Below are positions 48,410 to 60,997 of a stretch of 64,000 nt of DNA, piece by piece. The translations under genes and the position numbers were made by a program. The stretch's first letter is position 1. Every line of letters starts with the position of its first letter. Source of the stretch: Burkholderia metallica (GTDB lineage Bacteria > Pseudomonadota > Gammaproteobacteria > Burkholderiales > Burkholderiaceae); contig NZ_CADFDB010000008.1 in assembly GCF_902832845.1 (NCBI RefSeq), positions 62,001 through 126,000 on the forward strand, read 5' to 3'. The notes under the pieces were generated by a model, which had not been told where the DNA came from, ran no database searches, and was given only the letters and a program-made list of their open reading frames with translations.

Positions 48410-50710
48410 ATGAAACAGACTGAGACACAGCAGCAGGCAGCGTTCGACTATCACGAATTTCCGACCCCGGGAAAGATCTCGGTCGTCGCGAGCAAGCCGC
48501 TCGTGACCCAGCGCGATCTCGCGCTGGCCTATACGCCGGGCGTGGCGGGCGTGTGCGAGGCCATCGCCGCCGATCCGCTGCAGGCGCACCGTTTCACGAG
48601 CCGCGGCAATCTGGTGGGCGTGATCACGAACGGCACGGCGGTGCTGGGCCTGGGCAACATCGGCCCGCTCGCATCCAAGCCGGTGATGGAAGGCAAGGCC
48701 GTGCTGTTCAAGAAGTTCGCGGGGATCGACGTCTTCGACATCGAGATCAACGAAACCGATCCGGACAAGCTGGTCGACATCATCGCGGGCCTTGAGCCGA
48801 CCTTCGGCGGCATTAACCTCGAGGACATCAAGGCGCCCGAATGCTTCACGGTCGAGCAGAAGCTGCGCGAGCGCATGAAGATTCCCGTCTTCCATGACGA
48901 TCAGCACGGCACCGCGATCACCGTGGCCGCCGCGTTCATCAACGGGCTGAAGGTCGTCGGCAAGTCGATTTCCGAAGTGAAGGTCGTGACCTCGGGGGCC
49001 GGCGCGGCCGCGCTGGCCTGTCTGGACCTGCTGGTCGATCTCGGGCTGCCGGTCGAAAACGTGTGGGTGACCGATATCGAAGGCGTCGTCTACCGCGGCC
49101 GCACCGTGCTGATGGACCCGGCGAAGGCGCGCTTCGCGCAGGAAACCGATGCGCGCAAGCTGTCCGAAGTGATCGGCGGCGCGGACGTGTTCCTGGGGCT
49201 GTCGGTCGGCGGCATCCTGAGCGCCGACATGCTGAAGGCGATGGCGCCGCGCCCGCTGATTCTCGCGCTGGCCAATCCCACGCCGGAAATCTTCCCGGAA
49301 CTGGCGCATGCGACGCGCGACGACGTCGTGATCGCGACCGGCCGCTCCGACTACCCGAACCAGGTCAACAACGTCCTCTGTTTCCCGTACATCTTCCGCG
49401 GCGCGCTGGACGTGGGCGCGACGACGATCACCCGTGAAATGGAGATCGCCGCGGTTCACGCGATCGCGGGGCTCGCCGAGGAAGAGCAGAACGAAGTCGT
49501 CGCGGCCGCCTACGGCGAGTACGGCGTGGCGTTCGGCGCGCAATACCTGATTCCGAAGCCGTTCGACCCGCGCCTGATCGTCCGTATCGCGCCGGCCGTC
49601 GCCAGGGCGGCGATGGAAGGCGGCGTCGCGACGCGCCCGCTGACCGATCTCGACGCGTACGTCGAGCAACTGCAGCAATTCGTCTACCATTCCGGCGCGT
49701 TCATGAAGCCGCTGTTCGCGACGGCGCGCCGGCTCGTGCGCGACGGCGGCAGGGCGCGGATCGTCTTTACCGAAGGCGAGGACGAGCGCGTGCTTCGCGC
49801 GGTGCAGGTGATCGTCGACGAGAAGCTGGCGCGCCCGATCCTGGTCGGGCGCCCGGAGGTGCTGCTCGCGCGCATCGAGCGGTTCGGCCTGCGGATCCGG
49901 CTCGGTCAGGATGTCGAAGTGACCAATCCCGAATATGACGAGCGGTTCCCGCAATACTGGGCGACGTACTGGGAGCTGCGTTGCCGCGACGGCATCTCGA
50001 AGGAGATGGCGCGGGTCGAGATGCGGCGCCGGCTGACGCTGATCGGCGCGATGATGGTGCGGCTCGGCGACGCGGACGGGATGATTTGCGGGACGGTGGG
50101 CGAGTACCACAACCACCTGCGGTTCGTCGACGAGGTGATCGGCAAGAAGCCGGGTGCGTCGACCTATGCGGCGATGAACATCCTGCTGCTCGATCAGCGC
50201 ACGGTCGCGCTGGTCGATACGCACGTCAACGACAATCCCGATGCGGAGCAGATCGCGGAATTCACGATTGCCGCCGCGCGCCAGATGGAATGGCTGAACC
50301 TGACGCCGAAGGCGGCCCTGCTGTCGCGGTCGAACTTCGGCTCGGGGAGTGCGGCGTCGGGCGTGAAGATGCGCCGGGCGCTGGAGATCATCCGGGAGCA
50401 GGCGCCGGATATCGAGGCGGACGGCGAAATGCACGGCGACTGCGCGCTCGACGAGGGCCTGCGGTTGCGGCTTCTGCCGATGTCGCCGCTCAAGGGCGCG
50501 GCGAACCTGCTCGTTTGCCCGAACGTGGATGCGGGGAACATCGCGTACAACCTGCTCAAGACCGAGGCCGGCAGCAACGTGGCGGTGGGGCCGTTCCTGC
50601 TGGGCGTGAATGCGCCGGTGAACATCCTCACGTCGAGCGCGACGGTGCGGCGGATCGTGAACATGACCGCGTTGACGGTGATCGAGGCGAATCGCAACGC
50701 GTCTGCCTGA
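48410..50710 (+). CDS. maeB: NADP-dependent malic enzyme with phosphotransacetylase-like domain
   Basis: The 766-residue protein joins a malic enzyme domain (about 15-420; [66 protein letters not shown] and the NADP-binding [11 protein letters not shown]) to a C-terminal phosphotransacetylase-like domain (about 430-766; [29 protein letters not shown]). This is the MaeB layout. It oxidises malate to pyruvate with CO2 release and NADPH formation. The ATG at 48410 is preferred to 48362, although neither has a strong ribosome site. A LysR regulator is divergent. Confidence 0.93.
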
Positions 50711-50980
50711 GCAGGCACCGGGAGGGGGTGACGCCTCCCAGTCATGCACCGCGTAGTGGTATCCCCGTAGGGCAGGTTCCGCTGCGCGGTCGCTCGATCC
50801 GATGCTGCCGTGCATTTAATCAGTATCGCGTAACAATGGCCGATGTATGGCGCCCGGCGCGTCGTACCCGGCAACAATCCCAACCATCTTTTAGGGCTCG
50901 CCACTTTCGCTATCGTCAGATAATTAGCTTTTATTTTCGTCTAAAATCGCGCTTCTTCTTACTTTTGGACGATATTTGTT

Positions 50981-51949
50981 TTGATTAAGCTGACGAAAAA
51001 ACTCTCGCGCACGGCGATCGCCGCATGCGTTGCTTATGCCGGGCTCCTGCCTTTATCCCGGCCCGCCGAAGCCCAGGTCGAACCGCTGAAGAATCCCGTC
51101 TACGGTGTGACCCTCGACGATCTGACGAAGCTGGACGCGATCGTCGCGTCGCTGCAGAACCTGCCGTACAAGCCCACCGTGCGCGTCGTGTTCGATCCGG
51201 GTACGTCGGCCGCCGACTACTACGCACCGCTGCTGCGCCTCCACGCCGTCGCCTACGTGATGGGCGAAGTCTACGATTCTTACTATTTCCCGACGGATCT
51301 CGCGACGTATCAGGCCAGAACGCAGGAACTGGTGTCGCAGTTGAAGAACACCGTCGACGTCTGGGAGATCGCGAACGAAATCAACGGCGAATGGCTGCGC
51401 AAGAACCCGAGCGGCACGAACGCCGTGGTCAACGCGCAAGAGCAGCAGATCGGCCAGATGGTTGCGGCGGCCAACCAGATCGTCAAATCGAACGGCGGCA
51501 AGACGGCCATCACGCTGTACTACAACGACGACAGCAAGGGCAACAACTGCTGGGAGAAGCCGCAGGACTACTGGAAGACGTGGCCCACCGCGTTCCTGTC
51601 CGCGACGGTCCGCCAGCAGGCCGACTACGCGCTGTTCAGCTACTACCCGTATCAGGATTGCACGGGGCTGAATCCGACGTGGAAGAACGATTTCGCGGCG
51701 CTGGAAAGCATCTTCCCGAACGCGAAGGTCGGTTTCGGTGAAATCGGCACGTCGGACACCTCCGCGCCGGCATCGGTGCAGCAGAACCTGATCAAGACGT
51801 ACTACCCGATGGTCGGCAGCATGAACGATCCGCGTTTCATCGGCGGATTCTTCTGGTGGAACTACGTCGAGCAGATGCTCCCGTATTCGACGAGCGCGTA
51901 CTTCCAGCTGTTGCGTCAGACGATCATCACGCTCAAGGCACCCAACTAA
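50981..51949 (+). CDS. Secreted TIM-barrel protein, clan GH-A glycoside hydrolase-like
   Basis: The 322-residue protein has a signal peptide (LIKLTKKLSRTAIAACVAYAGLLPLSRPAEAQ, first codon TTG) and then a TIM-barrel-like domain. Clan GH-A acid/base motif Asn132-Glu133 occurs in VWEIANEINGEW, and Glu254 in VGFGEIGTS is a good nucleophile candidate. WWNYVEQMLPYSTS lies near the end. No ATG is available in frame between the stop at 50942-50944 and the signal peptide, so TTG at 50981 is the start. It is convergent with the Nfr-like operon and may cleave the polymer made there. I cannot assign a CAZy family. Confidence 0.75.
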   Translation: MIKLTKKLSRTAIAACVAYAGLLPLSRPAEAQVEPLKNPVYGVTLDDLTKLDAIVASLQNLPYKPTVRVVFDPGTSAADYYAPLLRLHAVAYVMGEVYDSYYFPTDLATYQARTQELVSQLKNTVDVWEIANEINGEWLRKNPSGTNAVVNAQEQQIGQMVAAANQIVKSNGGKTAITLYYNDDSKGNNCWEKPQDYWKTWPTAFLSATVRQQADYALFSYYPYQDCTGLNPTWKNDFAALESIFPNAKVGFGEIGTSDTSAPASVQQNLIKTYYPMVGSMNDPRFIGGFFWWNYVEQMLPYSTSAYFQLLRQTIITLKAPN

Positions 51950-51989
51950 GCGGCAAGCGCCCTTCGCGAGCCAGCGTCAGCGTCGCCTG

Positions 51990-53684
51990 TTAGAACCACA
52001 ATGTCGCGCGTACCACGAGACCTCGTGCGCGTGCCGCTGACGTCAGCCCGAACCGGTATTGCACCGTGACATCCAGATAGCTTGCCGGCGCGCTATAGCG
52101 GCCCTCGCGAAACCAGTACCGAAACTGGATACCGGGCCCGGCGCCGATCGCCGTCTTCTCCGGCTGTCGATTGTCGTGATCGCCGGCCACCGCGGCATGC
52201 GGGTAGACCGTCAGCCGATCGCTGATCATCGGCACCCGCCACGTGTGCCCGTAACGCAGCTCCGAATAAATGATGTACCGGCCCGCGCTGATGAAGTACG
52301 CGCCCTCGACGTACGCCTGCCAGCTGCGCCAGCTCGGTTCGGTCACCCGCAGGTCGGTCCCGCCTTCCGACGAATAGCCGATACGCATCAGCCAGTCCGT
52401 CATCGACAGGGTGCCGACGTGGAACAGCCGCTCGGCGGTCAGCACGACGTTCTGATCGGGCAGCGGCTTGTAGCGCGCGCCCACCGACCCCTGCACGGTC
52501 GGCATGCCGGTCACGTTGCCCGTGCCGTCGTAGGCCGTGCCGTATCCGCGTACGAAGAACTGGAAGATGCGGCCGTTCTGATAGCCGATCTTCGGCGGCT
52601 GCCAGTACACCTCGATACCCGGCTGCAACACGCTGATGGTGCCTTGCGGGCCGAACGCGGCCGACTGGTACGGCGCGCTCAGCACGAACCCCCAGGTGCG
52701 CTGAAGCTGCTCGACTTCCCGCCGATAGCCGAACTTGTGCTGCGCATCGAAGGTGTGTTCGTTTTCATCGGCGTCGAGGCTGTGTTCGAACAGGTCGATG
52801 GACTCGTCGTTCAACCCGATCCGCTTGGCCGCGTAGCCCGCGTCGGCGTAGTTCATCGCGTTGCCTGCGCCGCCCGCGAATCCTTCCCGGAATGCGTCGA
52901 GCGCCTCGCGATCCTTGTGGTCGCGCAGCAGGTCGTACGCGTCCTGCAATTTCTGTTGCGCGGCATTGTCCGCCGGCGCCTGGGCGGCCTGGTCTTCCTG
53001 CCGCGCCTGCGCGGCGATCGACGCGGCCATGTTGCGCTCGCCTTCGGTCGTCGCATCGGCGGCGGCCAGATCGGCCATGCGGATCGCGGTATCGCGGTCG
53101 CCTGCCTGCAGGCTCAACTGCGCGATACGCAACTGCACGACGGCCGATTTCTCGTCGGCCAGCGGCGCCAGCGCCATCCCGGCCTCGTGCGGACGATTCG
53201 CCGCGAGCGCGCTGTCCGACCACGCGAGACGCAGGTTGCGCTGCTGATCCTTGCTCCATTTTCCGATGGCGACGGCAGCCGCGAAATCGCTGCACGCGAC
53301 GTCGTAGTGCATCTGACGCTGCGCCAGATAGCCATGCTGCGCGCGTACCGCCGCACTCTTCGGAAAACGAACGACCAGCGCTTCCACCAGGGCGTCCGCT
53401 TCGTCGACTTTCCCTTCCCGGTGATACACGTCGACGAGCAGCAGCCCGAGCTGTTCGCTACCGGGCTGAAGCCTGATCGCGCGCGACGCATACGTTTCCG
53501 CGAGCGGCAGGTCGCCGGCATTGATCGCCTTGTACGCGCTGTCGGCGAGCCGGTAGGCTTTGGGCGTCAGCGGCGCGGCGGCGGAAGCCGGCGCATGCCA
53601 GGCCAGCGCCACCGCGATCGCCAGCGCGCTCAACCGTGCGCGGCGCTTGAGGCCGGCCGCGATCGGGGGTCTCGTCTGCTTCAT
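51990..53684 (-). CDS. NfrA-like outer-membrane protein (TPR plus beta-barrel)
   Basis: The 564-residue protein begins with a signal peptide (RRARLSALAIAVALAWHAPASAAA). TPR-like repeats follow at about 40-310 (AYKAINAGDLPLAETYASRAIRLQPGSEQLGLLLVDVYHREGK; DAYDLLRDHKDREALDAFREGFAGG). A barrel-like C-terminal part covers about 320-564 (IEVYWQPPKIGYQNGRIFQFFVRGYGTAYDG; YIIYSELRYGHTWRVP; SYLDVTVQYRFG) and ends in VVRATLWF. The TPR-barrel order matches the NfrA export protein, though E. coli NfrA is far longer (about 990 residues). Its ATG overlaps the NfrB-like stop in ATGA, so it is coupled to it. It likely guides or exports the polymer across the outer membrane. Confidence 0.82.
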   Translation of the reverse strand: MKQTRPPIAAGLKRRARLSALAIAVALAWHAPASAAAPLTPKAYRLADSAYKAINAGDLPLAETYASRAIRLQPGSEQLGLLLVDVYHREGKVDEADALVEALVVRFPKSAAVRAQHGYLAQRQMHYDVACSDFAAAVAIGKWSKDQQRNLRLAWSDSALAANRPHEAGMALAPLADEKSAVVQLRIAQLSLQAGDRDTAIRMADLAAADATTEGERNMAASIAAQARQEDQAAQAPADNAAQQKLQDAYDLLRDHKDREALDAFREGFAGGAGNAMNYADAGYAAKRIGLNDESIDLFEHSLDADENEHTFDAQHKFGYRREVEQLQRTWGFVLSAPYQSAAFGPQGTISVLQPGIEVYWQPPKIGYQNGRIFQFFVRGYGTAYDGTGNVTGMPTVQGSVGARYKPLPDQNVVLTAERLFHVGTLSMTDWLMRIGYSSEGGTDLRVTEPSWRSWQAYVEGAYFISAGRYIIYSELRYGHTWRVPMISDRLTVYPHAAVAGDHDNRQPEKTAIGAGPGIQFRYWFREGRYSAPASYLDVTVQYRFGLTSAARARGLVVRATLWF

Positions 53685-55642
53685 GCCTGTTCTCCCGACG
53701 GTGTTCTCACGGGCGCGTCCTGTTGCGCCGCCGGGTCGCCGTCGCGTGCGCGTGCGATTTCGACGAAGCGGGAGTGCCGGGCGAGTTCGGCGGCAATTTC
53801 CGCGTCGCTCGCGATGAAGTAGGCCACGTTCGACCGCGCGCCCCGGCGCATGACGTCCTGTTCGTCCGGCGTGAGCGGCCGCCCGACCGCCACGTTCAGC
53901 GTGCCGTCCTCCGCGGTCGAAAACGGGACGGCGCGATACGCGTACTGCAGCTCGAATGCGAGCGAATCCGCGAAGTGGCCCACCGCGACGTTGCCGAGAC
54001 TCACGCGCGGCAGCTCGGCCTGTTCGGCGATCGCATCCGCGAGCGATTCGGCGGATATCGCGCAGTCTTCCAGCAGCAGTTCACCCAGCCGCTTGCCGCA
54101 GGCCAGTTGCTTCTCGAGGCTGGCCTGCAATTGCTCCAGCGTGACCACGCCCCAGTCGACCAGAATCTCGCCGACTTTCTGGCGCATCTTCCCGAGCGCT
54201 TCGTTCGACAGATAGGTATGACTGGTCTTGTCCCATGCGATGGGCTTGCCGGTCGCCAGATGGCGGATATAGATGCGCCACGCGCGGCAAACCGCGTAGA
54301 AATTGATCAGGTTGTTGACGAACATCCGCGGAATCGACAGCAGCCCCTGGGTCGGGCCGTTCAGCCTGCTGACGAAATGAAAGCGCTGGGCGGCGCGCGC
54401 GAACAGCATCGCGGTGTTGATCCACAGCAGCGGCGCGACCCAGTCGCCGGCCATGACGAGCGGGGCGTGCACCGGGATCAGATGGCCGGCGCGCTGCAGC
54501 GCGCCGAGCAACAGGAAGTTGATCAGCACGCCGTACGCGACGACCGAAAACAGCGAGGTCAGGATGCCCTTGCGATCGTGGAAGAACAGGTAGCGGGTGA
54601 GCAGGTTGCCTTTCCATCCGAGTTGCTCCCAGCCCTGAAACGCAATGCCGAGGATCCAGCGCGTGCGCTGACGGTATGCAGTCCGGAACGTTTTCGGAAA
54701 ATACTCGCACGTGGCGAGCAGGTTCCGGTTCGCGGCGCCGCCCGGTGCGCGCTTCTCCGCCGCGTCGCGCGTGAACCCCGACAACGGAATGCACGCGAAG
54801 GTTTCCTTCATCCCGAGGTCTCTCAGCCGGAAGCTGAAGTCGTAGTCCTCGGTCAGCGAACTGGTGTTGAACGGCGCGCCGTTGCGCTCCTTCATCGCCG
54901 CTTCGATCGAGCGCCTGCTGTAGCACGATGCGACGCCCGCGCCCGGGACGATGCCGGTCAGCCGGGCGCGCACCGGCACGTCCTTCTGGTGCGTCTCGCT
55001 GAAGTCGTCCAGATAGCATCCGGCGACGAACTCGTTCCATTTCCGCGGCAACGACAGCACGGGAAGCTGGACCAGGTCGCTGTCCGCGACCGCATGGTTG
55101 AGGTACTTGAGTTCGACCGGATGAATGACGTCCTCGCAGTCGTGCATCACGACACCCGCGAACTGGATGTGATGGACCGATTCGTAGCGCAGGATCGCTT
55201 CGATGATCCAGTTCAGGCAGTCGGCCTTGCAAGTCGGCCCGTCGTTCATCACCGTCGCGCGCGTGACGCGGCCCGGATACCTTCGGACCATCCGCTCGAC
55301 CTCGGCCGTGGTTTCGGCATCGTTGTGATAAGTGCCGACGAATATCACGTACCGCTCGTACTCGAGAGTCGTCAGGGTGTTCTCGATCATCCTGGCGATC
55401 ACGTCGTATTCCTTCCATGCCGGCACCATCAGCGCCAGATGGCGCTCTTCGAGCGCGCGCAGCATGCCGATATCGATCGTTTGCGATTTTTCGCGGCGAA
55501 GGATGCGCCGGATTTCGAAGGACCAGTAACAGGCGTCCAGCGTGAGGTCATCCAGTGTGCTCACCAGGATGACGAGTGCGGTCACGATGGCGACAAGGTT
55601 GAGCGCATATAAATATGAACTCCAAATCATGTGATCCATCAT
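53681..55642 (-). CDS. NfrB-like GT2 glycosyltransferase with MshEN domain
   Basis: The 653-residue protein has an N-terminal membrane helix (about 7-28), a GT2 domain with HDCED (168-171 region) and TEDYDFSFRL, the acceptor QRTRW motif (325-329), several membrane helices (about 367-460), and a C-terminal MshEN domain. The MshEN part has two tandem motifs: KVGEILVDWGVVTLEQL with LQASLEKQ, and RLGELLLEDCAISAESL with LADAIAEQ (about 489-541). MshEN domains bind cyclic-di-GMP. This is the NfrB arrangement of a c-di-GMP-activated polysaccharide synthase. The start (ATGATG near 55642) follows GGAAAG closely; 55639 is also possible. NfrA-like gene is coupled downstream. Confidence 0.88.
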   Translation of the reverse strand: MMDHMIWSSYLYALNLVAIVTALVILVSTLDDLTLDACYWSFEIRRILRREKSQTIDIGMLRALEERHLALMVPAWKEYDVIARMIENTLTTLEYERYVIFVGTYHNDAETTAEVERMVRRYPGRVTRATVMNDGPTCKADCLNWIIEAILRYESVHHIQFAGVVMHDCEDVIHPVELKYLNHAVADSDLVQLPVLSLPRKWNEFVAGCYLDDFSETHQKDVPVRARLTGIVPGAGVASCYSRRSIEAAMKERNGAPFNTSSLTEDYDFSFRLRDLGMKETFACIPLSGFTRDAAEKRAPGGAANRNLLATCEYFPKTFRTAYRQRTRWILGIAFQGWEQLGWKGNLLTRYLFFHDRKGILTSLFSVVAYGVLINFLLLGALQRAGHLIPVHAPLVMAGDWVAPLLWINTAMLFARAAQRFHFVSRLNGPTQGLLSIPRMFVNNLINFYAVCRAWRIYIRHLATGKPIAWDKTSHTYLSNEALGKMRQKVGEILVDWGVVTLEQLQASLEKQLACGKRLGELLLEDCAISAESLADAIAEQAELPRVSLGNVAVGHFADSLAFELQYAYRAVPFSTAEDGTLNVAVGRPLTPDEQDVMRRGARSNVAYFIASDAEIAAELARHSRFVEIARARDGDPAAQQDAPVRTPSGEQA

Positions 55643-56577
55643 TCTTTCCGCGCTTTTGTCTCGTACCGGATTGTTTCCCCTCGTATCGACGCAGGACGAA
55701 ACGCTTTTCGTCCTCGTCGCCCCCGTCACGTCCACTTCGTGGCTTGCGCCGCGCGAATGCCGGCCGACCGGACGAGCGCCGTATGGGACGCGCGCTGCCT
55801 CGATGTGGCCTCGTTACGTCGCGAACGACGTGACGTATTCAGTGGGTGACTTTTCGACCGCCTGTTTCCCGCGTGCTTGCGTCGACGCTTGCGTCCGCTC
55901 TGCGCGCGGCGCGCGCCTCGCGGCACACTGCAGATGTAGCAAGTCGTGCGCCATCGCTGCGCGACCCTTGGCCTTGCGGGGTGTGCGAGGTGCCGCACAG
56001 GATCGGCTCGCCGAATGCCGATCAAACGTTTCAGTGCTGAAACATGCGGTCGCTCGAGCGAGCGACACGGCGTTCTCAGGCCCTTTGCCGGGCGGTGATC
56101 GCCACCTTCTGCACGCGTCATGCAACGCCTGCGGAGACCTGATGAACGGTTCGGTATCGAACCGGCAACACTGTGTGTCGGTCCCGCATTGCGCATGCAT
56201 AGCAACCGCGGCGAGTGCCGCTTCGCGATTCGACGATGCGCGCTAATCGAATGGTTTTCCCCGAATCGTACGAACAGGTTTTTTACGTTCGTCCGATTTA
56301 ATTCGCGACGCGGCTGCGTTGCACGTCTGAAACGTTTTATCGACGCATTTCCGAACCGTGTAGATACGCCGATTTCCCCGCCTTGGCGCTATGCCCGTTT
56401 GCGACGGATGGTACGGTTCTAGCTTGAAAGTCCAACCATCCCCGGCCGGATTTGTTCGTCCGGGTTCGAACGCGCAGCAGACATTCACGACATGACGCCC
56501 CGTAATCCGGATGGCGTTCGGCCGTGCCCGTTTCGTTAACGAGATGACCTTATTTTGCTTATCAAAGGATGAAAATC
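55643..56577. other. Long divergent promoter region of the polysaccharide locus
   Basis: About 930 bp with no supported gene separate the NfrB-like gene from the small secreted protein gene. It contains an inverted repeat at 56264-56298. The length suggests several regulator sites, as expected for a c-di-GMP or stress-controlled surface polymer. I see no standard terminator. Confidence 0.5.
56264..56298. repeat. Inverted repeat in the polysaccharide divergent promoter
   Basis: AATCGTACGAAC (56264-56275) pairs with GTTCGTCCGATT (56287-56298) at 11 of 12 positions around an 11-nt loop rich in T. It is about 280 bp upstream of the small secreted protein and 620 bp from the NfrB-like start. Confidence 0.5.
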
Positions 56578-56874
56578 ATGCCTTCGCATCGCAAACAATT
56601 TTTCGGGAACGGGTTGCGTACCGCCGGATCGCTCGCCGCATTGATCACTGCGCTCGTCTTCACTGTCGGCGTTCAGGACGCACATGCGCAGCAGACGGGC
56701 GATGCGCCTGCCCTGAAGATCAAACCGCCGCCGCTACCGAACGGCTCGGCCCAGGTCAACCTGAAAGCAGGCATGTCCGACGAGGATTGGGAAAAAGCGT
56801 ACAAGGAAACGGGCCGTCCGAAGTTCAGCAAGAAGTCGGTCAAGAAGTTAAACGGCAATGTGGAACGTGAGTAG
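56578..56874 (+). CDS. Small secreted protein of the polysaccharide locus
   Basis: The 98-residue protein has a signal peptide (SHRKQFFGNGLRTAGSLAALITALVFTVGVQDAHAQQ), then a basic, Pro/Lys-rich mature part of about 60 residues (LKIKPPPLPNG, then GMSDEDWEKAYKETGRPKFSKKSVKKLNG). The ATG at 56578 has AAAGGA 8 bp upstream; an ATG at 56569 has no spacing. The gene lies 12 bp before the DUF2334 gene, so the two form an operon. I know no family for it. Confidence 0.72.
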   Translation: MPSHRKQFFGNGLRTAGSLAALITALVFTVGVQDAHAQQTGDAPALKIKPPPLPNGSAQVNLKAGMSDEDWEKAYKETGRPKFSKKSVKKLNGNVERE

Positions 56875-56886
56875 GGAGAAACGGCC

Positions 56887-58530
56887 ATGAAAAAGATCTT
56901 GCTCGTCATCGCCCTGCTTGCGGGACTCGCGCAAATGACATTGCCGGGTACCGCGCACGCGCAGGCCACCACCGCCCATACGCTCGTGCTCTACGACAAT
57001 CCGGCCAACGACCCGTATTCGAAGCTGGGCCTGATGTACAGCATCATGCTGAGAAACCTGCTCGGCCACTTCAACGCGACGATCGATCTGGTGCCGATCC
57101 AGAACTACACGTCCGGCATGGTCGGGAGCCACGACGTGACGTTCTATGTCGGCGACTACTACAACAACCCGATTCCGACGGCGTTCATGACCGACGTGAT
57201 GACCACCAAGAAGACGGTGGTCTGGTTCAAGTACAACCTGTGGCAGCTGGCCTGGAACACGGCCTACACGTTCAACCAGACCTTCGGGTTCAGCTTCGTG
57301 AGCCTCGCCGGGATGAACGCGACGCCGTCGTCGAGCAATCCGAATCCCGGCTTCTACGATACGGTCACTTACAAGAACCTGCCGATGGTCAAGTATTACG
57401 CGTACAACGCGTCGACCGGCGTGATCAGCGCGGATCCGGATATCGGCGTGACGCAGGTCCTCGATTCCACCAAGGCGCAGGCGCTCGTCACCATCAAGAA
57501 CAGCAAGACCGGCGCAACCGCGCCGTACGTCATGCGCTCGGGCAATTTCTGGTACTTCGCCGACGTGCCGTTTTCCTACATCGGGCCGACGGATCGCTAC
57601 CTGGTGATCTGCGACATCCTGCACGACATCCTGCAGACCAATGCGCCGGTGAATCATCGTGCGCTCGTGCGTCTCGAAGACCTCGACGCGTACACGACGA
57701 CGAGTTCGATGCAACTGCTGACGAACTACATGTACTCGAAGCGGATCCCGTTCACGATGGCCACGATTCCGTTGTATACGGACCCGAACGGCTATTACAA
57801 CGGCGGCGTGCCGGAGACGATTCATCTGGCGCAGGCAACCGGCCTCAAGAGTGCGCTGAACTACGCGCTTGCACGCGGCGGCTCGATCGTGATGCACGGT
57901 TATACGCACCAGTACGATTCGACGCCGAACCTGCTGAATGCGGTCAGCGGGAGCGACTACGAGTTCTGGTTCGCGGTGCAGAACCGGCCGGTCGACGAGG
58001 ACTCGATCCCGTGGGCGGAAGGCCGGATGGCCGATGGCCTGCTGGAGTTCACGACCAACGGCTACAAGGTCGTCGGCTGGGCCGCGCCGCAGTACCAGAT
58101 GTCGCCGGCCGCATCGTCGGCGACGGCGCTCACGTTCCCGACCACGTTCCAGCGGGCCGTGTACTACACGTCGACCAATCCGCAACTCGGAACGGGTGCC
58201 GCGAACCAGGATTTTTCGGCCGGGCAGTTTTTCCCGTACATCATCAACGCCGATTACTACGGACAGCGGATCGTTCCGGAGAACCTGGGCAGCGTGCAGT
58301 ACAACATCTGCAACGTCGACAAATTCTCGTGCATCACGTACACGTGGCAGCAGATCGTGACCAATGCCAAGTATGGTCTGGCGGTGCGGGACGGTTTCGC
58401 GTCGTTCTTCTTTCATCCGTACTGGCTCGAGCCCGATCTCGGATTGCCGGCGTATCAGGACTTCCAGAGCATGATTACCGGCATTACGAATCTCGGCTAC
58501 AAGTGGGTGGACGGCGCGACCGCCAAGTGA
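56887..58530 (+). CDS. DUF2334/polysaccharide-deacetylase-like secreted protein
   Basis: A signal peptide (KKILLVIALLAGLAQMTLPGTAHAQA) precedes an N-terminal alpha/beta region (about 30-255) and a deacetylase-type barrel. NodB-like metal motifs are suggested by RLEDLDAY (Asp265 and Asp267) and MHGYTHQYD (His337 and His341), and FFFHPYWLEP near the end. DUF2334 proteins are distant relatives of polysaccharide deacetylases. AGGGAGAA precedes the ATG; length 547. It may deacetylate the exopolysaccharide during export. Catalysis is inferred from motifs only. Confidence 0.82.
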   Translation: MKKILLVIALLAGLAQMTLPGTAHAQATTAHTLVLYDNPANDPYSKLGLMYSIMLRNLLGHFNATIDLVPIQNYTSGMVGSHDVTFYVGDYYNNPIPTAFMTDVMTTKKTVVWFKYNLWQLAWNTAYTFNQTFGFSFVSLAGMNATPSSSNPNPGFYDTVTYKNLPMVKYYAYNASTGVISADPDIGVTQVLDSTKAQALVTIKNSKTGATAPYVMRSGNFWYFADVPFSYIGPTDRYLVICDILHDILQTNAPVNHRALVRLEDLDAYTTTSSMQLLTNYMYSKRIPFTMATIPLYTDPNGYYNGGVPETIHLAQATGLKSALNYALARGGSIVMHGYTHQYDSTPNLLNAVSGSDYEFWFAVQNRPVDEDSIPWAEGRMADGLLEFTTNGYKVVGWAAPQYQMSPAASSATALTFPTTFQRAVYYTSTNPQLGTGAANQDFSAGQFFPYIINADYYGQRIVPENLGSVQYNICNVDKFSCITYTWQQIVTNAKYGLAVRDGFASFFFHPYWLEPDLGLPAYQDFQSMITGITNLGYKWVDGATAK

Positions 58531-58638
58531 GCCCGGCGTAACGGCAGCTGCGTGCGACCCGTATCGGCAATGCGGGTCGCATGTTTTTGCGTTCGATCGG
58601 CTACGATGACGCGCAGGCATGCTTCCCGCGAGCGAGCG

Positions 58639-59607
58639 ATGACCCCGTATGCGATCCCGGTGTTGCGCAGGATTCGCCAGCGTATGCGCCGGTTTCGGCG
58701 CGCGACGCGGCCCGGCCCGTTCGCCGGCGCGCCGCGTTCGCCCCGCGCGGCGACGCTCGCGGCGATCGGCGCGTCGCTCGTCGTGGCCGCCTGTAGCTGG
58801 ACCGCGCACGACGTGCACGCGGACGGGATCGTCTGGCAGGTGGACAACGCGACCACCCGTCCGGTCGGCAACTGGCAGATCCTCGGTGTCAGCGATCTGC
58901 TGATTCAATGGATCGCGGTCGACGATACCGCGTACGTCGCGAATACCCGCATCCAGCCTGCCGCGCACCTGCCCGACTGGGAACGTATCGGCCGTGAGCC
59001 GTGGGCCCGGAACGTGATCCTCGGCCTCGCCGGCTACCAGGACGAAAAACGCGCGCGCACCCATCTGTCGACGCTCGCCGACCAGTCGCTGGAAGTGGCG
59101 CGCGCATCGCTCCCGCTGCACGTCACCGGCTACTACTTCCCGGTCGAGATCGATCCGACCTGGCAGGATGCGCCGAAGCTTGCCGCGGTGCTGCAGCGGC
59201 TGCCGCGTCCGCTGTGGGTGAGCGTGTACGACCAGACCAATATCGGCGGAAAGGCGCTCGCCGACTGGCTCGCCGCGTGGCTGCCGTCGGACGTCGGCGT
59301 GTTCTTCCAGGACGGCTGCGGCGTGTATGCCCGCGAGCCGTATGTCGCGCGCAGCTACGTCGACGAACTGGCTGCAAGACTGGGCAAACGCCGCGTGCGG
59401 GTCATCGCCGAAGCATTCCGGCCCGCCGAGCGGGGCGGGTTCCGTTCCGCCAGCGCCGACGAGTTGAGCAGGCAACTGGTCGCGTATCGCGGCTATCCGG
59501 TCTATCTGTTCGACGGTCCGCACTATGTGTCCGACGACCTCGCACGCGCGCTGTCGACGTGGAAGCCGGGGCCGCCGCCGGCCGCGCCCGCGGTGACGCC
59601 GCACTGA
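58639..59607 (+). CDS. Putative lipoprotein with sugar-hydrolase-like barrel (DUF4434-like)
   Basis: The N-terminal part reads AATLAAIGASLVVAACS with a lipobox-like VAAC, so a lipoprotein is likely. The rest is an alpha/beta pattern with YYFPVEIDPTWQDAP, LWVSVYDQTNIGGKALADWLAAWLPSDVGVFFQDGCGVYAREPYVARSYVDELAARLGKRRVRVIAEAFRP and YPVYLFDGPHYVSDDLARAL. This resembles DUF4434-type TIM barrels that accompany polysaccharide genes. The start at 58639 lacks a good ribosome site; 58609 or 58552 are alternatives. It follows the DUF2334 gene by 108 bp on the same strand. Confidence 0.65.
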   Translation: MTPYAIPVLRRIRQRMRRFRRATRPGPFAGAPRSPRAATLAAIGASLVVAACSWTAHDVHADGIVWQVDNATTRPVGNWQILGVSDLLIQWIAVDDTAYVANTRIQPAAHLPDWERIGREPWARNVILGLAGYQDEKRARTHLSTLADQSLEVARASLPLHVTGYYFPVEIDPTWQDAPKLAAVLQRLPRPLWVSVYDQTNIGGKALADWLAAWLPSDVGVFFQDGCGVYAREPYVARSYVDELAARLGKRRVRVIAEAFRPAERGGFRSASADELSRQLVAYRGYPVYLFDGPHYVSDDLARALSTWKPGPPPAAPAVTPH

Positions 59608-59797
59608 TCCGGCCGGATGCCGCCCCGGCGCGATGTGATGACCAAACCGCAAGACCTAGTGCATAGATATCGTTTGCCGCGGCCTTAATGACTATCGACA
59701 ATCGTGGCTCGATTTCGCCGCCGTCGCGCCAGAAGCGCCGCGGCGGCCGGCATCGGGCGGCTATCCCGGCCGTCCGCGCCCTCCAGCTCACGACGAC

Positions 59798-60997
59798 ATG
59801 TACGCGTTCACTCCCTCATTCCAGAATCCCGCCGGCTCGCCGATCCGCGAACTGTTCAAGTACCTGTCCGAACCGGGCATGATTTCCTTTGCGGGCGGCT
59901 ATCCGGCCAGCGACCTGTTCGACGTCGACGGCCTGGACGCGGCCGCCGCGCGCGCGTACGCGCAGCCCGTACGCTGCCTGCAATACGGCCCGACCGACGG
60001 CCTCGCCGACCTGAAGCAGCAACTGATCGCGCTGATGGCGCGTCGCGGCGTGGCGTGCACGGCGGCCGAACTGCTCGTCACGACCGGGTCGCAACAGGGC
60101 CTCGATCTGCTGCTGCGCGTGATGGTGTCGCCCGGCGACGTCGTGCTCACCGAGCAGCCTGCTTATCCGGCGACGCTGCAGGCGATGCGTCTGCAGCAGG
60201 CGCGCATCGTGACGATTCCGGTCGACGGCGCTGGGCTCGACGTCGATCGTCTCGGCGAACAGCTCGCATCCGGCGCGATCGCGCAGCCGAAGCTGCTCTA
60301 TACGGTGCCGACCTTCGCGAACCCGACGGGCGCGACGCTTACGCGCGAGCGTCGGCTGAAGCTGCTGCGTCTCGCGGTGCAGTACCGTTTCCTGATCGTC
60401 GAGGACGATCCGTACGGCGACCTGCGTTTCGCGGGCGAGCCCGTGCCGTCGATGCTGGCGCTCGCCGATCAGGTCGACGGCGCGCGCGACTGGATCGTGC
60501 ATTTCGCGAGCCTGTCGAAGATCGTCGCACCGGGGCTGCGCGTGGGCTGGACGATCGCGCCGGCCGAGATCGCACGGCGCTGCGTGATCGCGAAGCAGAC
60601 GGTCGATCTGTGCAGCACGCCGTGGACGCAGGCGACCGCCGCCGAATATCTGGCCGACGGCGCGCTCGAACGCCATTTGCCGCGCATCGCGGCCGCATAC
60701 CGGCGCAAATGCGATGCGATGTGCGACGCGCTGCGCGACGGCCTCGGCGACGCGATCGAATTCCATCGCCCGGAAGGCGGGATGTTCGTGTGGGCACGCA
60801 TCGGCGCGGTGTCGTCGGACGTGCTGCTGCAACAGGCGATCGCGAACAAGGTCGTGTTCGTGCCCGGCAAAGCGTTCTTCGCGGACAACGTCGACGCGGC
60901 GTCGCTGCGCCTGTCGTTCGCCGCGCCGGACGTCGACGCGATCCGGGAAGGCGTCGCGCGTCTCGTGCGCGCGCATGGTGCGGCGCTCGTTGCGTGA
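59798..60997 (+). CDS. Class I PLP-dependent aminotransferase (2-aminoadipate/LysN-like)
   Basis: The 399-residue protein begins YAFTPSFQNPAGSPIRELFKYLSEPGMISFAGGYPASDLFD and has CLQYGPTDGLADLKQQLIALMARRG, TTGSQQGLDLLLRVM, NPTGATLTRERRLKLL, EDDPYGDLRF and ASLSKIVAPGLRVGW. Lys241 (SLSK) is the PLP lysine. This MocR/LysN-like branch transaminates 2-aminoadipate, leucine or related acids. A DUF1338 2-oxoadipate enzyme lies 23 kb away, which fits lysine metabolism but is not a link in itself. The gene reads to 60997; a small protein gene follows 12 bp later. Confidence 0.88.
   Translation: MYAFTPSFQNPAGSPIRELFKYLSEPGMISFAGGYPASDLFDVDGLDAAAARAYAQPVRCLQYGPTDGLADLKQQLIALMARRGVACTAAELLVTTGSQQGLDLLLRVMVSPGDVVLTEQPAYPATLQAMRLQQARIVTIPVDGAGLDVDRLGEQLASGAIAQPKLLYTVPTFANPTGATLTRERRLKLLRLAVQYRFLIVEDDPYGDLRFAGEPVPSMLALADQVDGARDWIVHFASLSKIVAPGLRVGWTIAPAEIARRCVIAKQTVDLCSTPWTQATAAEYLADGALERHLPRIAAAYRRKCDAMCDALRDGLGDAIEFHRPEGGMFVWARIGAVSSDVLLQQAIANKVVFVPGKAFFADNVDAASLRLSFAAPDVDAIREGVARLVRAHGAALVA

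Follow-up and report, generated by a model that had tools for sequence, protein, structure and literature searches.

A conserved six-gene Nfr-type cassette with DUF2334 and hydrolase-like proteins in Burkholderia metallica

Introduction

The NfrB, NfrA and YbcH proteins of Escherichia coli make up NGR, the system of the phage N4 receptor glycan. In the portions of two reports consulted (PMC8669469, PMC8669472), the supply of the UDP-ManNAc precursor is attributed to a wecB gene far from the operon, and the chemistry of the glycan is still inferred from genetics. Other nfr clusters, such as those of Achromobacter, are described in part of the second report as carrying wecB, bcsB and, in some cases, O-acetylation genes (PMC8669472). 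A periplasmic de-N-acetylase/hydrolase is combined with a TPR-barrel exporter in the Pga system, with PgaB as deacetylase and hydrolase and PgaA as exporter (in excerpts of PMC9384988), and in the Pel system, with PelA (in excerpts of PMC12022489). At the regulatory level, BerB and VpsR are presented, in the sections consulted, as c-di-GMP-binding activators of exopolysaccharide genes (PMC5552954).

Results

Layout of the cassette and comparison with known systems

The cassette lies at positions 50981–59607 of the window, the 64,000-nucleotide stretch of B. metallica DNA analysed here, and consists of six genes, for NfrB, NfrA, a DUF2334 protein, a hydrolase-like protein, a small secreted protein and a lipoprotein, defined from the list of open reading frames and Pfam/NCBIfam matches (Table 1). 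The initial annotation had placed an Nfr-like locus here, and family models match the GT2 and MshEN synthase, NfrA and the DUF2334 protein; the ATGA coupling that it proposed between the synthase and TPR/barrel genes is seen on the reverse strand, where CAG-GCA-TGA ends nfrB and ATG-AAG-CAG starts nfrA. As many relatives align only from residue 29–32, nfrB most likely starts at 55642 rather than at the ORF start, 55735; by reading of the sequence, the most likely start of the lipoprotein is the ATG at 58639. Rfam gave no match at the gathering threshold within 50000–60500.

Table 1 Features of the cassette, in window positions
Feature	Positions	Strand	Description
Hydrolase-like protein gene	50981..51949	+	322 aa; secreted; clan-A-like glycoside hydrolase candidate
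nfrA	51990..53684	-	564 aa; TPR and outer-membrane barrel exporter; PF13283
nfrB	53681..55642	-	GT2 synthase, MshEN at its C-terminus; ORF call extends to 55735
MshEN region, tandem motifs	53771..54190	-	ORF residues 516-655 of NfrB; PF05157, NF053729
Sigma54-like promoter site TGGCGCACGACTTGC, facing nfrBA	55939..55953	-	
Palindrome GTTTCAGTGCTGAAAC	56028..56043		74 bp upstream of nfrB-side sigma54-like site
Imperfect palindrome GTTGCACGTCTGAAAC	56318..56333		75 bp upstream of other-side sigma54-like site
Sigma54-like promoter site TGGTACGGTTCTAGC, facing small protein/DUF2334/lipoprotein genes	56409..56423	+	
Small secreted protein gene	56569..56874	+	101 aa; C-terminal half conserved; no family match
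DUF2334 de-N-acetylase-like protein gene	56887..58530	+	547 aa; secreted; PF10096
YbcH/DUF4434-family lipoprotein gene	58639..59607	+	mechanical ORF from 58552; NF007404

Like the E. coli system in those portions of the reports, the cassette has a GT2–MshEN synthase gene overlapping a TPR-barrel exporter gene, a DUF4434 protein and a wecB gene located elsewhere, whereas the DUF2334, hydrolase and small secreted proteins, the divergent layout and the mirrored sigma54-like sites are additions. With the Achromobacter-type clusters, as partly described, it shares an NfrB–NfrA core accompanied by polymer-modifying genes; those clusters have BcsB and some have O-acetylation genes, whereas the cassette has a deacetylase-like protein and hydrolases and no BcsB among its six genes. 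It resembles Pga and Pel in pairing putative de-N-acetylase and hydrolase functions with a TPR-barrel exporter but differs from both, as excerpted, in its separate polypeptides, its MshEN synthase and its DUF2334 protein in place of PgaB or the CE21 PelA. The earlier view was of a Pga- or Pel-like locus built of different parts; no PgaB or PelA family is found among the Pfam/NCBIfam matches of the six proteins, and the deacetylase-like and hydrolase-like proteins are on separate genes. The combined layout had also been thought undescribed; we found no description of it in the literature searched, supplementary files aside.

Proteins of the cassette

NfrB contains a GT2 domain (PF13641, E 4.3e-32) with the DxD, TED and QxxRW residues of a GT2 synthase, including the motifs SLTED and QRTRW; its D199, D297 and W360 align with D169, D267 and W330 of E. 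coli NfrB, to which it is 38% identical. It is filed as an Nfr-type synthase of the NF012033 type, and not as the E. coli equivalog, since it passes NF012033 (1034.8 bits, cut-off 537) but reaches 560 bits against NF008411, below the curated cut-off of 1170. Its MshEN region is matched by PF05157 (25.0 bits, cut-off 23.1, E 1.9e-5) and NF053729 (50.2 bits, cut-off 38, E 1.6e-13). Of the seven c-di-GMP residues compared, V521, G522, L536, L540, L550, G551 and I569, against L490, G491, L505, L509, L518, G519 and L537 in E. coli, five are identical and two are conservative changes (V and I for L). These residues support a predicted control of NfrB by c-di-GMP; some DUF2334-linked NfrBs (e.g. L082) lack MshEN, which counts against the reading of the cassette as an extended Nfr system. 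NfrA is recognized by the NfrA_C family (PF13283, 174.7 bits, cut-off 25, E 1.6e-51), with TPR matches below cut-off. Another MshEN match of the genome, on contig C11, was considered as a second Nfr system and dropped: no relative of a cassette gene occurs within 19.5 kb, and the ORF translations read like a type II secretion region.

The DUF2334 protein matches PF10096 at 135.3 bits (cut-off 26, E 2.8e-39), as do all 51 aligned relatives examined with this model, and is matched weakly by one deacetylase model (23.5 bits, cut-off 280). In its alignment, E264, D265, H337 and H341 are present in 81/81 sequences and H510 in 79/81, the other two having gaps; the first four fit the pattern given for PelA/CE4, as would be expected of a NodB-like polysaccharide de-N-acetylase with its metal triad and catalytic residues.

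In the hydrolase-like protein, N132, E133 and E254 are invariant in the 29 aligned sequences. E133, within an NE motif that we take to be a clan-A acid/base signature, is the candidate acid/base and E254 the candidate nucleophile; a clan-A glycoside hydrolase would carry its two catalytic Glu in a TIM barrel. No Pfam/NCBIfam or GH family (GH53, GH113) matches the window protein above curated cut-off, and five of 22 relatives match GH53 weakly, all below cut-off (best E 3.8e-4). The small secreted protein, 48–79% identical to its relatives in a 13-row alignment, has no Pfam or NCBIfam match.

The lipoprotein, which the initial annotation had counted among the added parts, is indeed present but belongs to the YbcH/DUF4434 family already found in E. 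coli nfrBA-ybcH. The family matches of the window protein are weak (PF14488, E 0.17; NF007404, 30.4 bits, cut-off 344, E 2.5e-7), and its aligned relatives match NF007404 in 30/30 and PF14488 in 26/30 cases; E199, D201, Q253 and D254 (ORF numbering) are conserved in 47/47 sequences and E287 in 46/47, with one gap. From these matches, we identify it as a divergent DUF4434/YbcH protein. Sequence searches of the PDB with six alignments (A1, A2, A3, A6 for the hydrolase, A7 for the DUF2334 protein and A8 for the lipoprotein) returned nothing at E < 0.05, the weak mentions being a mannanase (E 0.41) and an endoglucanase (E 0.27).

A mirrored promoter region and a candidate regulator

In the divergent promoter region, a pair of sigma54-like sites is arranged in mirror image, with a palindrome about 75 bp away from each site. 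The nfrB-side palindrome and site are present in 23/23 regions, and the other-side pair is at the same place in 20/23, being weak or displaced in three (L053, L059, L060). Both arms are found at any score in all 23 regions and at a score of at least 5 in 21, one of which (L053) has its second arm elsewhere; when the window's region was resampled 2000 times, no version had both arms at that score. A sigma54 pattern, written after both sites had been seen, gave equally many matches in 33 of 100 shuffles, and its count therefore carries no weight as a test. Outside Burkholderia, the clusters examined did not show the mirrored promoter. Upstream of the hydrolase gene, where the promoter was inspected by eye, the window scan shows no palindrome.

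Allowing at most one mismatch, the palindrome occurs at two places in the 7.55 Mb genome, the second being beside a gene for a VpsR-domain (PF20161) sigma54 activator bearing GAFTGA. Relatives of this gene (72–100% identical) adjoin 20 of 26 non-cassette palindromes from other genomes. As the palindrome is present in 62/65 Burkholderia genomes, its activator is not dedicated to the cassette; from adjacency alone, we infer that the VpsR-like gene may encode the cassette's regulator. The candidate resembles the BerB/VpsR activators, with differences in the parts of the reports consulted: BerB, a neighbour of bep and berA, is described as having no N-terminal input domain (PMC5552954), whereas the candidate has a VpsR domain, and V. 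cholerae VpsR is without the GAFTGA (PMC3162934) that the candidate has. BerB itself was provisionally set aside as the regulator, no bep or berA being recognized by reading the 18 kb around the VpsR-like gene.

Conservation within Burkholderia

Among 65 Burkholderia genomes, the hydrolase gene is present in all 24 with a close NfrB and in none of the 41 others. All 24 carriers hold the six genes, and the hydrolase and deacetylase genes that the initial annotation had joined to nfrBA are conserved next to them in each. The order is the same in 22 complete relatives and the window, with pieces spread over contigs in one genome (G009), and the complete relatives fall at two kinds of chromosomal site, with 14 loci at one and 8 at the other. 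NfrBs at the 45–50% level in the genus occur without the added genes. Genome-wide searches for DUF2334 covered 36 other Burkholderia genomes, 24 genomes of the order and a further draw from the order; the small protein and lipoprotein genes were looked for in the fetched loci only.

Wider distribution and the target of the added enzymes

Beyond the genus, the DUF2334 loci sampled were the best 80 of 463 relatives. An nfrB or nfrA gene is found at 59 of these nearest 80, which, with the 24/24 Burkholderia carriers, supports the Nfr-type reading first proposed, and the hydrolase profile at 29 of the 80. The loci with Nfr genes come from Burkholderiales, Gammaproteobacteria and one Omnitrophota MAG. 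Of the same 80, 53 loci cover at least 20.9 kb, and these contain NfrB and NfrA in 42 cases, DUF4434 in 34, wecB in 31 and the hydrolase in 25; control DNA totalling 200.9 kb contains no NfrB, NfrA or DUF4434 match. In the draw from the order, 14 of 16 NfrB-bearing genomes have neither DUF2334 nor hydrolase among the matches listed (183 of 399 genomes had a match listed; apart from the 16 genomes matched over the GT part, the listed matches cover the C-terminal MshEN region only). The cassette with DUF2334 and hydrolase is a minority branch of Nfr systems.

It is unlikely that the cassette makes an ordinary NGR-type Nfr polymer while the DUF2334 protein and hydrolase, sharing the island, act on another glycan of the cell wall, a host or a competitor. 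This would fit the 21 of the nearest 80 (best 80 of 463) DUF2334 loci that show no Nfr gene, including 11 whose flanks are complete, from which it follows that DUF2334 can act elsewhere, as well as a DUF2334 paralogue whose neighbours on a B. vietnamiensis plasmid include diguanylate cyclase genes and a Fusobacterium relative of the hydrolase with no other cassette gene within 24.9 kb. Against it stand the conservation of the whole cassette at two kinds of chromosomal site, the promoter architecture common to both arms, the location of DUF2334 inside nfr operons in other genera and its repeated association across the NfrB tree. In that tree (82 rows), the DUF2334 label changes nine times, seven of them forced, with one gene labelled both ways (L076 and L174) because L174 is short.

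Linkage to wecB and the nature of the sugar

The source genome encodes WecB elsewhere, with two PF02350 genes on contigs C6 and C9 and none on the window contig, C8. A polymer built from another UDP-HexNAc (GlcNAc or GalNAc), giving a Pga- or Pel-like cationic product, would agree with the absence of wecB from the window cassette and with the NF008411 score of NfrB, but we give it little credence, as wecB lies in the flanks of 45 of the nearest 80 DUF2334 loci (best 80 of 463), within 3.5–6.5 kb of the cassette in 8/8 second-site Burkholderia loci and in the genomes of all 24 carriers. In G009, wecB lies inside cassette copies. WecB is also present in 32/41 non-carriers (p 0.021); its commonness across the genus, like the absence of wecB from the window cassette, counts against the reading of the cassette as an extended Nfr system.

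A decaying island, kept by linkage and with little expressed function, is highly improbable: five genus nfrB matches have internal stops (G016, G062, G012, G078, G030) and G009 has broken cassette copies, but those five keep open frames of 653–766 aa, so that the stops are probably upstream of the likely nfrB start, all 24 carriers keep every gene and the active sites are invariant in the aligned loci.

Discussion

We judge it fairly likely that the cassette is an extended Nfr exopolysaccharide system, with a DUF2334 enzyme and a hydrolase acting on its polymer and with switching by a VpsR-family sigma54 activator. On sequence grounds, these two enzymes probably trim and de-acetylate an Nfr-type surface polymer, and the linkage of DUF2334 loci to wecB and nfr, together with the invariant active-site residues, suggests a partly de-acetylated polymer of the ManNAc type.

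In such a system, UDP-ManNAc would be supplied by WecB, encoded elsewhere in the genome, as suggested by the linkage of the genes and by the E. coli reports. Binding of c-di-GMP to MshEN, expected from its residues, would trigger NfrB to polymerize UDP-ManNAc across the inner membrane, and the periplasmic DUF2334 enzyme, to which residues and linkage point, would remove part of the N-acetyl groups and leave a cationic polymer. The NfrA TPRs would guide the polymer out through the barrel; the DUF4434 lipoprotein may assist this step or clip the chain, and the clan-A-like hydrolase may trim, release or clear the polymer. Both divergent operons are probably co-switched through the mirrored palindromes by the VpsR-family activator, which, if it responds to c-di-GMP, would thus add a second, transcriptional layer of control by this messenger.

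More tentatively, and with some doubt, the cassette may stand for a widespread new class of biofilm exopolysaccharide, a cationic poly-mannosamine that has lost part of its N-acetyl groups and is made by NfrB/NfrA, with DUF2334 as a new exopolysaccharide de-N-acetylase family, a new clan-A hydrolase family and, in Burkholderia, c-di-GMP acting twice, through MshEN and through the VpsR-family activator.

The mirrored sigma54-like sites point to a specific candidate regulator, and the cassette suggests functions, open to experiment, for DUF2334 and for a hydrolase-like family that is unclassified. The Nfr branch carrying deacetylase-like and hydrolase-like proteins predicts a cationic mannosamine polymer and offers enzymes by which the Nfr polymer could be cut and identified.

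Gene content of the cassette

ORF calling recovered all six genes proposed by the initial annotation at their position, and nfrB and nfrA overlap by ATGA, in agreement with the coupling proposed there. Clear Pfam matches were obtained for NfrA (NfrA_C, E 1.6e-51), NfrB (GT2 and MshEN) and the DUF2334 protein (E 2.8e-39), while the 322-aa hydrolase-like protein and the 101-aa small secreted protein gave no family match in the family-model search. The window lipoprotein alone matches the DUF4434 family weakly (NF007404, E 2.5e-7), and its aligned relatives match better (NF007404 in 30/30, PF14488 in 26/30). The third gene of the E. coli nfr operon, ybcH, likewise carries a DUF4434 annotation. 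The E. coli set is thus complete here with synthase, exporter and lipoprotein, and the DUF2334, hydrolase-like and small secreted proteins are additions to it.

Positions of cassette features and related loci (L-numbers, fetched loci)
Feature	Locus	Coordinates	Strand
Hydrolase-like gene	window	50981-51949	+
nfrA	window	51990-53684	-
nfrB	window	53681-55642	-
Mirrored σ54-like sites and palindromes	window	55939-56423	
Small secreted protein gene	window	56569-56874	+
DUF2334 gene	window	56887-58530	+
DUF4434 lipoprotein gene	window	58639-59607	+
Second palindrome locus	L207	7252-8646 and 9013-9117	
Second chromosomal site, chemoreceptor and cNMP-binding protein	L201	5712-11444	
Second chromosomal site, cNMP-binding protein	L202	10688-12037	
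Fusobacterium vincentii hydrolase relative	L080	11938-12897	
B. vietnamiensis plasmid NZ_CP091982	L081	9519-20312	
Streptomyces plasmid NZ_CP108510	L083	6371-12650	
nfr cluster with tandem DUF2334 genes	L138	8147-13528	

Conserved residues

The E. coli NfrB residues D169, D267 and W330, reported as required for phage infection (PMC8669469), align with D199, D297 and W360 of the window NfrB. Among the seven MshEN positions described as mutated in the two Nfr papers, five are identical and two conservatively replaced, and G522 is the counterpart of the critical G491 of the E. coli protein, for which a Kd of 1.0 µM for c-di-GMP is reported (PMC8669469). The NCBI cut-off ruled out the E. coli NfrB equivalog for the window NfrB.

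The hydrolase-like protein carries two glutamates, one within an Asn-Glu motif, that are invariant in 29/29 sequences. In the DUF2334 protein, E264, D265, H337 and H341 are present in 81/81 sequences and H510 in 79/81 (two gaps), which agrees with the base-metal, HxxxH and acid pattern described for PelA and CE4/CE18 enzymes (PMC12022489). The DUF4434 lipoprotein keeps E199 and D201 in 47/47 and E287 in 46/47 (one gap). The activities proposed for these proteins are predicted from such residues.

The six genes form a unit within Burkholderia

NfrB was found in 26 and the hydrolase in 24 of 65 Burkholderia genomes, the hydrolase carriers being exactly the genomes with a close NfrB (77–100% identical). 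Conservation of the hydrolase genes next to nfrB/nfrA, on which the initial annotation depended, is borne out by 22 complete loci besides the window (L039–L060), all with the six genes in the same order. The 24th carrier, genome G009, has them in pieces across several contigs (L063, L061, L062, L064 and L070), plus extra and broken copies; one copy has wecB between DUF2334 and an nfr remnant. An aminotransferase gene adjoins the cassette in the window and in 14 of the 22 complete loci; the other eight occupy a different site, so the six genes were relocated or inserted together. Between wecB and the hydrolase gene, this second chromosomal site encodes a chemoreceptor (L201; HAMP, MCP and near-cut-off dCache) and a cNMP-binding protein that weakly matches FliG_C (L201, L202). 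The other Burkholderia NfrBs are 45–50% identical (G029, G080 and second systems in G022 and G030), and the flanks examined contain wecB and lack DUF2334 and hydrolase genes.

Association of DUF2334 with Nfr genes beyond the genus

A genome_contigs scan (84,980 species according to the tool description) was run with the DUF2334 alignment, and the best 80 of 463 relatives were analyzed with our own profiles. NfrB or NfrA is encoded in the flanks of 59 of these 80 loci; among the 53 with at least 20.9 kb, both are present in 42, DUF4434 in 34, wecB in 31 and the hydrolase in 25. The same profiles found no NfrB, NfrA or DUF4434 in 200.9 kb of other sequence. They gave four matches there: two (wecB and the hydrolase) fall in L202, a genuine flank of a cassette, one is the already known L081 DUF2334 gene, and the last is a weak match to the small protein, next to that gene. 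No Nfr gene is seen at 21 of the best 80 loci, 11 of them with full flanks; several are, by their record titles, second paralogues in genomes that also hold a linked copy.

In an order sample of 399 genomes, apparently identical in the NfrB, DUF2334 and hydrolase searches, NfrB with its GT part occurs in 16. DUF2334 and the hydrolase occur in the same two genomes, both among these 16 and one being the window's own; the extended form is thus in the minority among Nfr systems. In an 82-row NfrB tree, nine changes of the DUF2334 label are required, and well-supported branches force seven of them; the pairing was therefore gained or lost on several occasions. The share of linked rows is meaningless here, as these were found via DUF2334.

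Several loci depart from this layout. One nfr cluster has three tandem DUF2334 genes (L138). The B. vietnamiensis plasmid locus carries a DUF2334 paralogue (67%) flanked on both sides by diguanylate cyclase genes, with no nfr genes in the interval. The hydrolase relative of F. vincentii (30%) has no other cassette gene within 24.9 kb. The Streptomyces plasmid encodes a 34% identical DUF2334 relative with GH113, GT2 and wecB genes, possibly for a similar polymer in a Gram-positive.

The divergent promoter region and a candidate regulator

The regulatory arrangement is an addition to the initial annotation. Aligning the divergent intergenic region of the window with those of 22 relatives (23 regions) reveals three most conserved 20-bp blocks, one palindrome and two outward-pointing σ54-like sites (conservation 0.95–0.97 versus a mean of 0.70). 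The nfrB-side palindrome is placed 74–76 bp upstream of its σ54-like site in 23/23 regions. Its counterpart on the other side is imperfect and stands 73–75 bp upstream in 20/23; in L059 and L060 it is found only with three mismatches, and in L053 it matches at a different position. At a score of at least 5, both arms are found in 21/23 regions; when the window's region was resampled (first order), 0/2000 versions had both arms and 1/2000 had one. Among the DUF2334 loci scanned (L095–L164), the mirrored arrangement was seen in Burkholderia only.

With up to one mismatch, the palindrome occurs at two places in the 7.55-Mb genome, the cassette and beside an activator gene, where a σ54-like site is again 74 bp away. 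This 465-aa σ54 activator matches the VpsR domain (PF20161, E 3.2e-21), and its GAFTGA motif is intact. This palindrome (L207) also adjoins the gene for a 107-aa secreted proline-rich protein. The N3 form is present in 62/65 Burkholderia genomes, compared with two matches in all for the reversed control pattern, and 20 of the 26 non-cassette palindrome loci fetched have an adjacent activator gene (72–100% identical). V. cholerae VpsR and B. cenocepacia BerB are reported to bind c-di-GMP and to activate polysaccharide genes (PMC5552954). The VpsR-domain activator may bind c-di-GMP too, and may be what recognizes the palindrome.

Likely substrate and comparison with known systems

UDP-ManNAc is inferred as the precursor from wecB in both Nfr papers (PMC8669469, PMC8669472). 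wecB is present in the flanks of 45 of the best 80 of 463 DUF2334 loci, 3.5–6.5 kb from the cassette in 8/8 second-site Burkholderia loci, and within the G009 cassette copies. Two PF02350 genes are encoded in the window's genome, both away from the cassette, and at least one is found in 24/24 Burkholderia carriers versus 32/41 non-carriers (p 0.021). With this linkage and the presence of wecB in all carriers, our best guess would be a ManNAc-type, partly de-acetylated polymer.

The cassette was rejected as a Pga or Pel system; it would rather operate as an Nfr system whose polymer is processed in the manner of Pga and Pel. In Pga, the PgaA TPRs are reported to bind PgaB and increase its activities (PMC9384988). 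Four other nfr clusters (L195, L196, L198 and L200) carry wecB and bcsB, the latter in L200 under a 'cellulose synthase' annotation, instead of a deacetylase, and L200 also has O-acetylation genes (AlgF, MBOAT). These clusters probably represent an acetylating Nfr branch, opposite to the presumed de-acetylating branch of the cassette.

The main texts of PMC8669469 and PMC8669472 do not mention Burkholderia; a deacetylase is absent from one, and its sole mention in the other concerns phage tailspikes. The layout, initially annotated as seemingly undescribed, does not appear among the openly accessible papers listed, supplementary figures aside, for NfrB in Burkholderia, for DUF2334 and for ManNAc exopolysaccharide with deacetylase and c-di-GMP, nor among the matches listed for Nfr and hydrolases since 2022, and the literature searched held nothing on an N4 adsorption protein together with Burkholderia. 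Overall, the cassette is a real, conserved and new variation on the Nfr system. Genomic evidence places the added enzymes firmly within it, and the mirrored sites yield a specific prediction of how it would be regulated.
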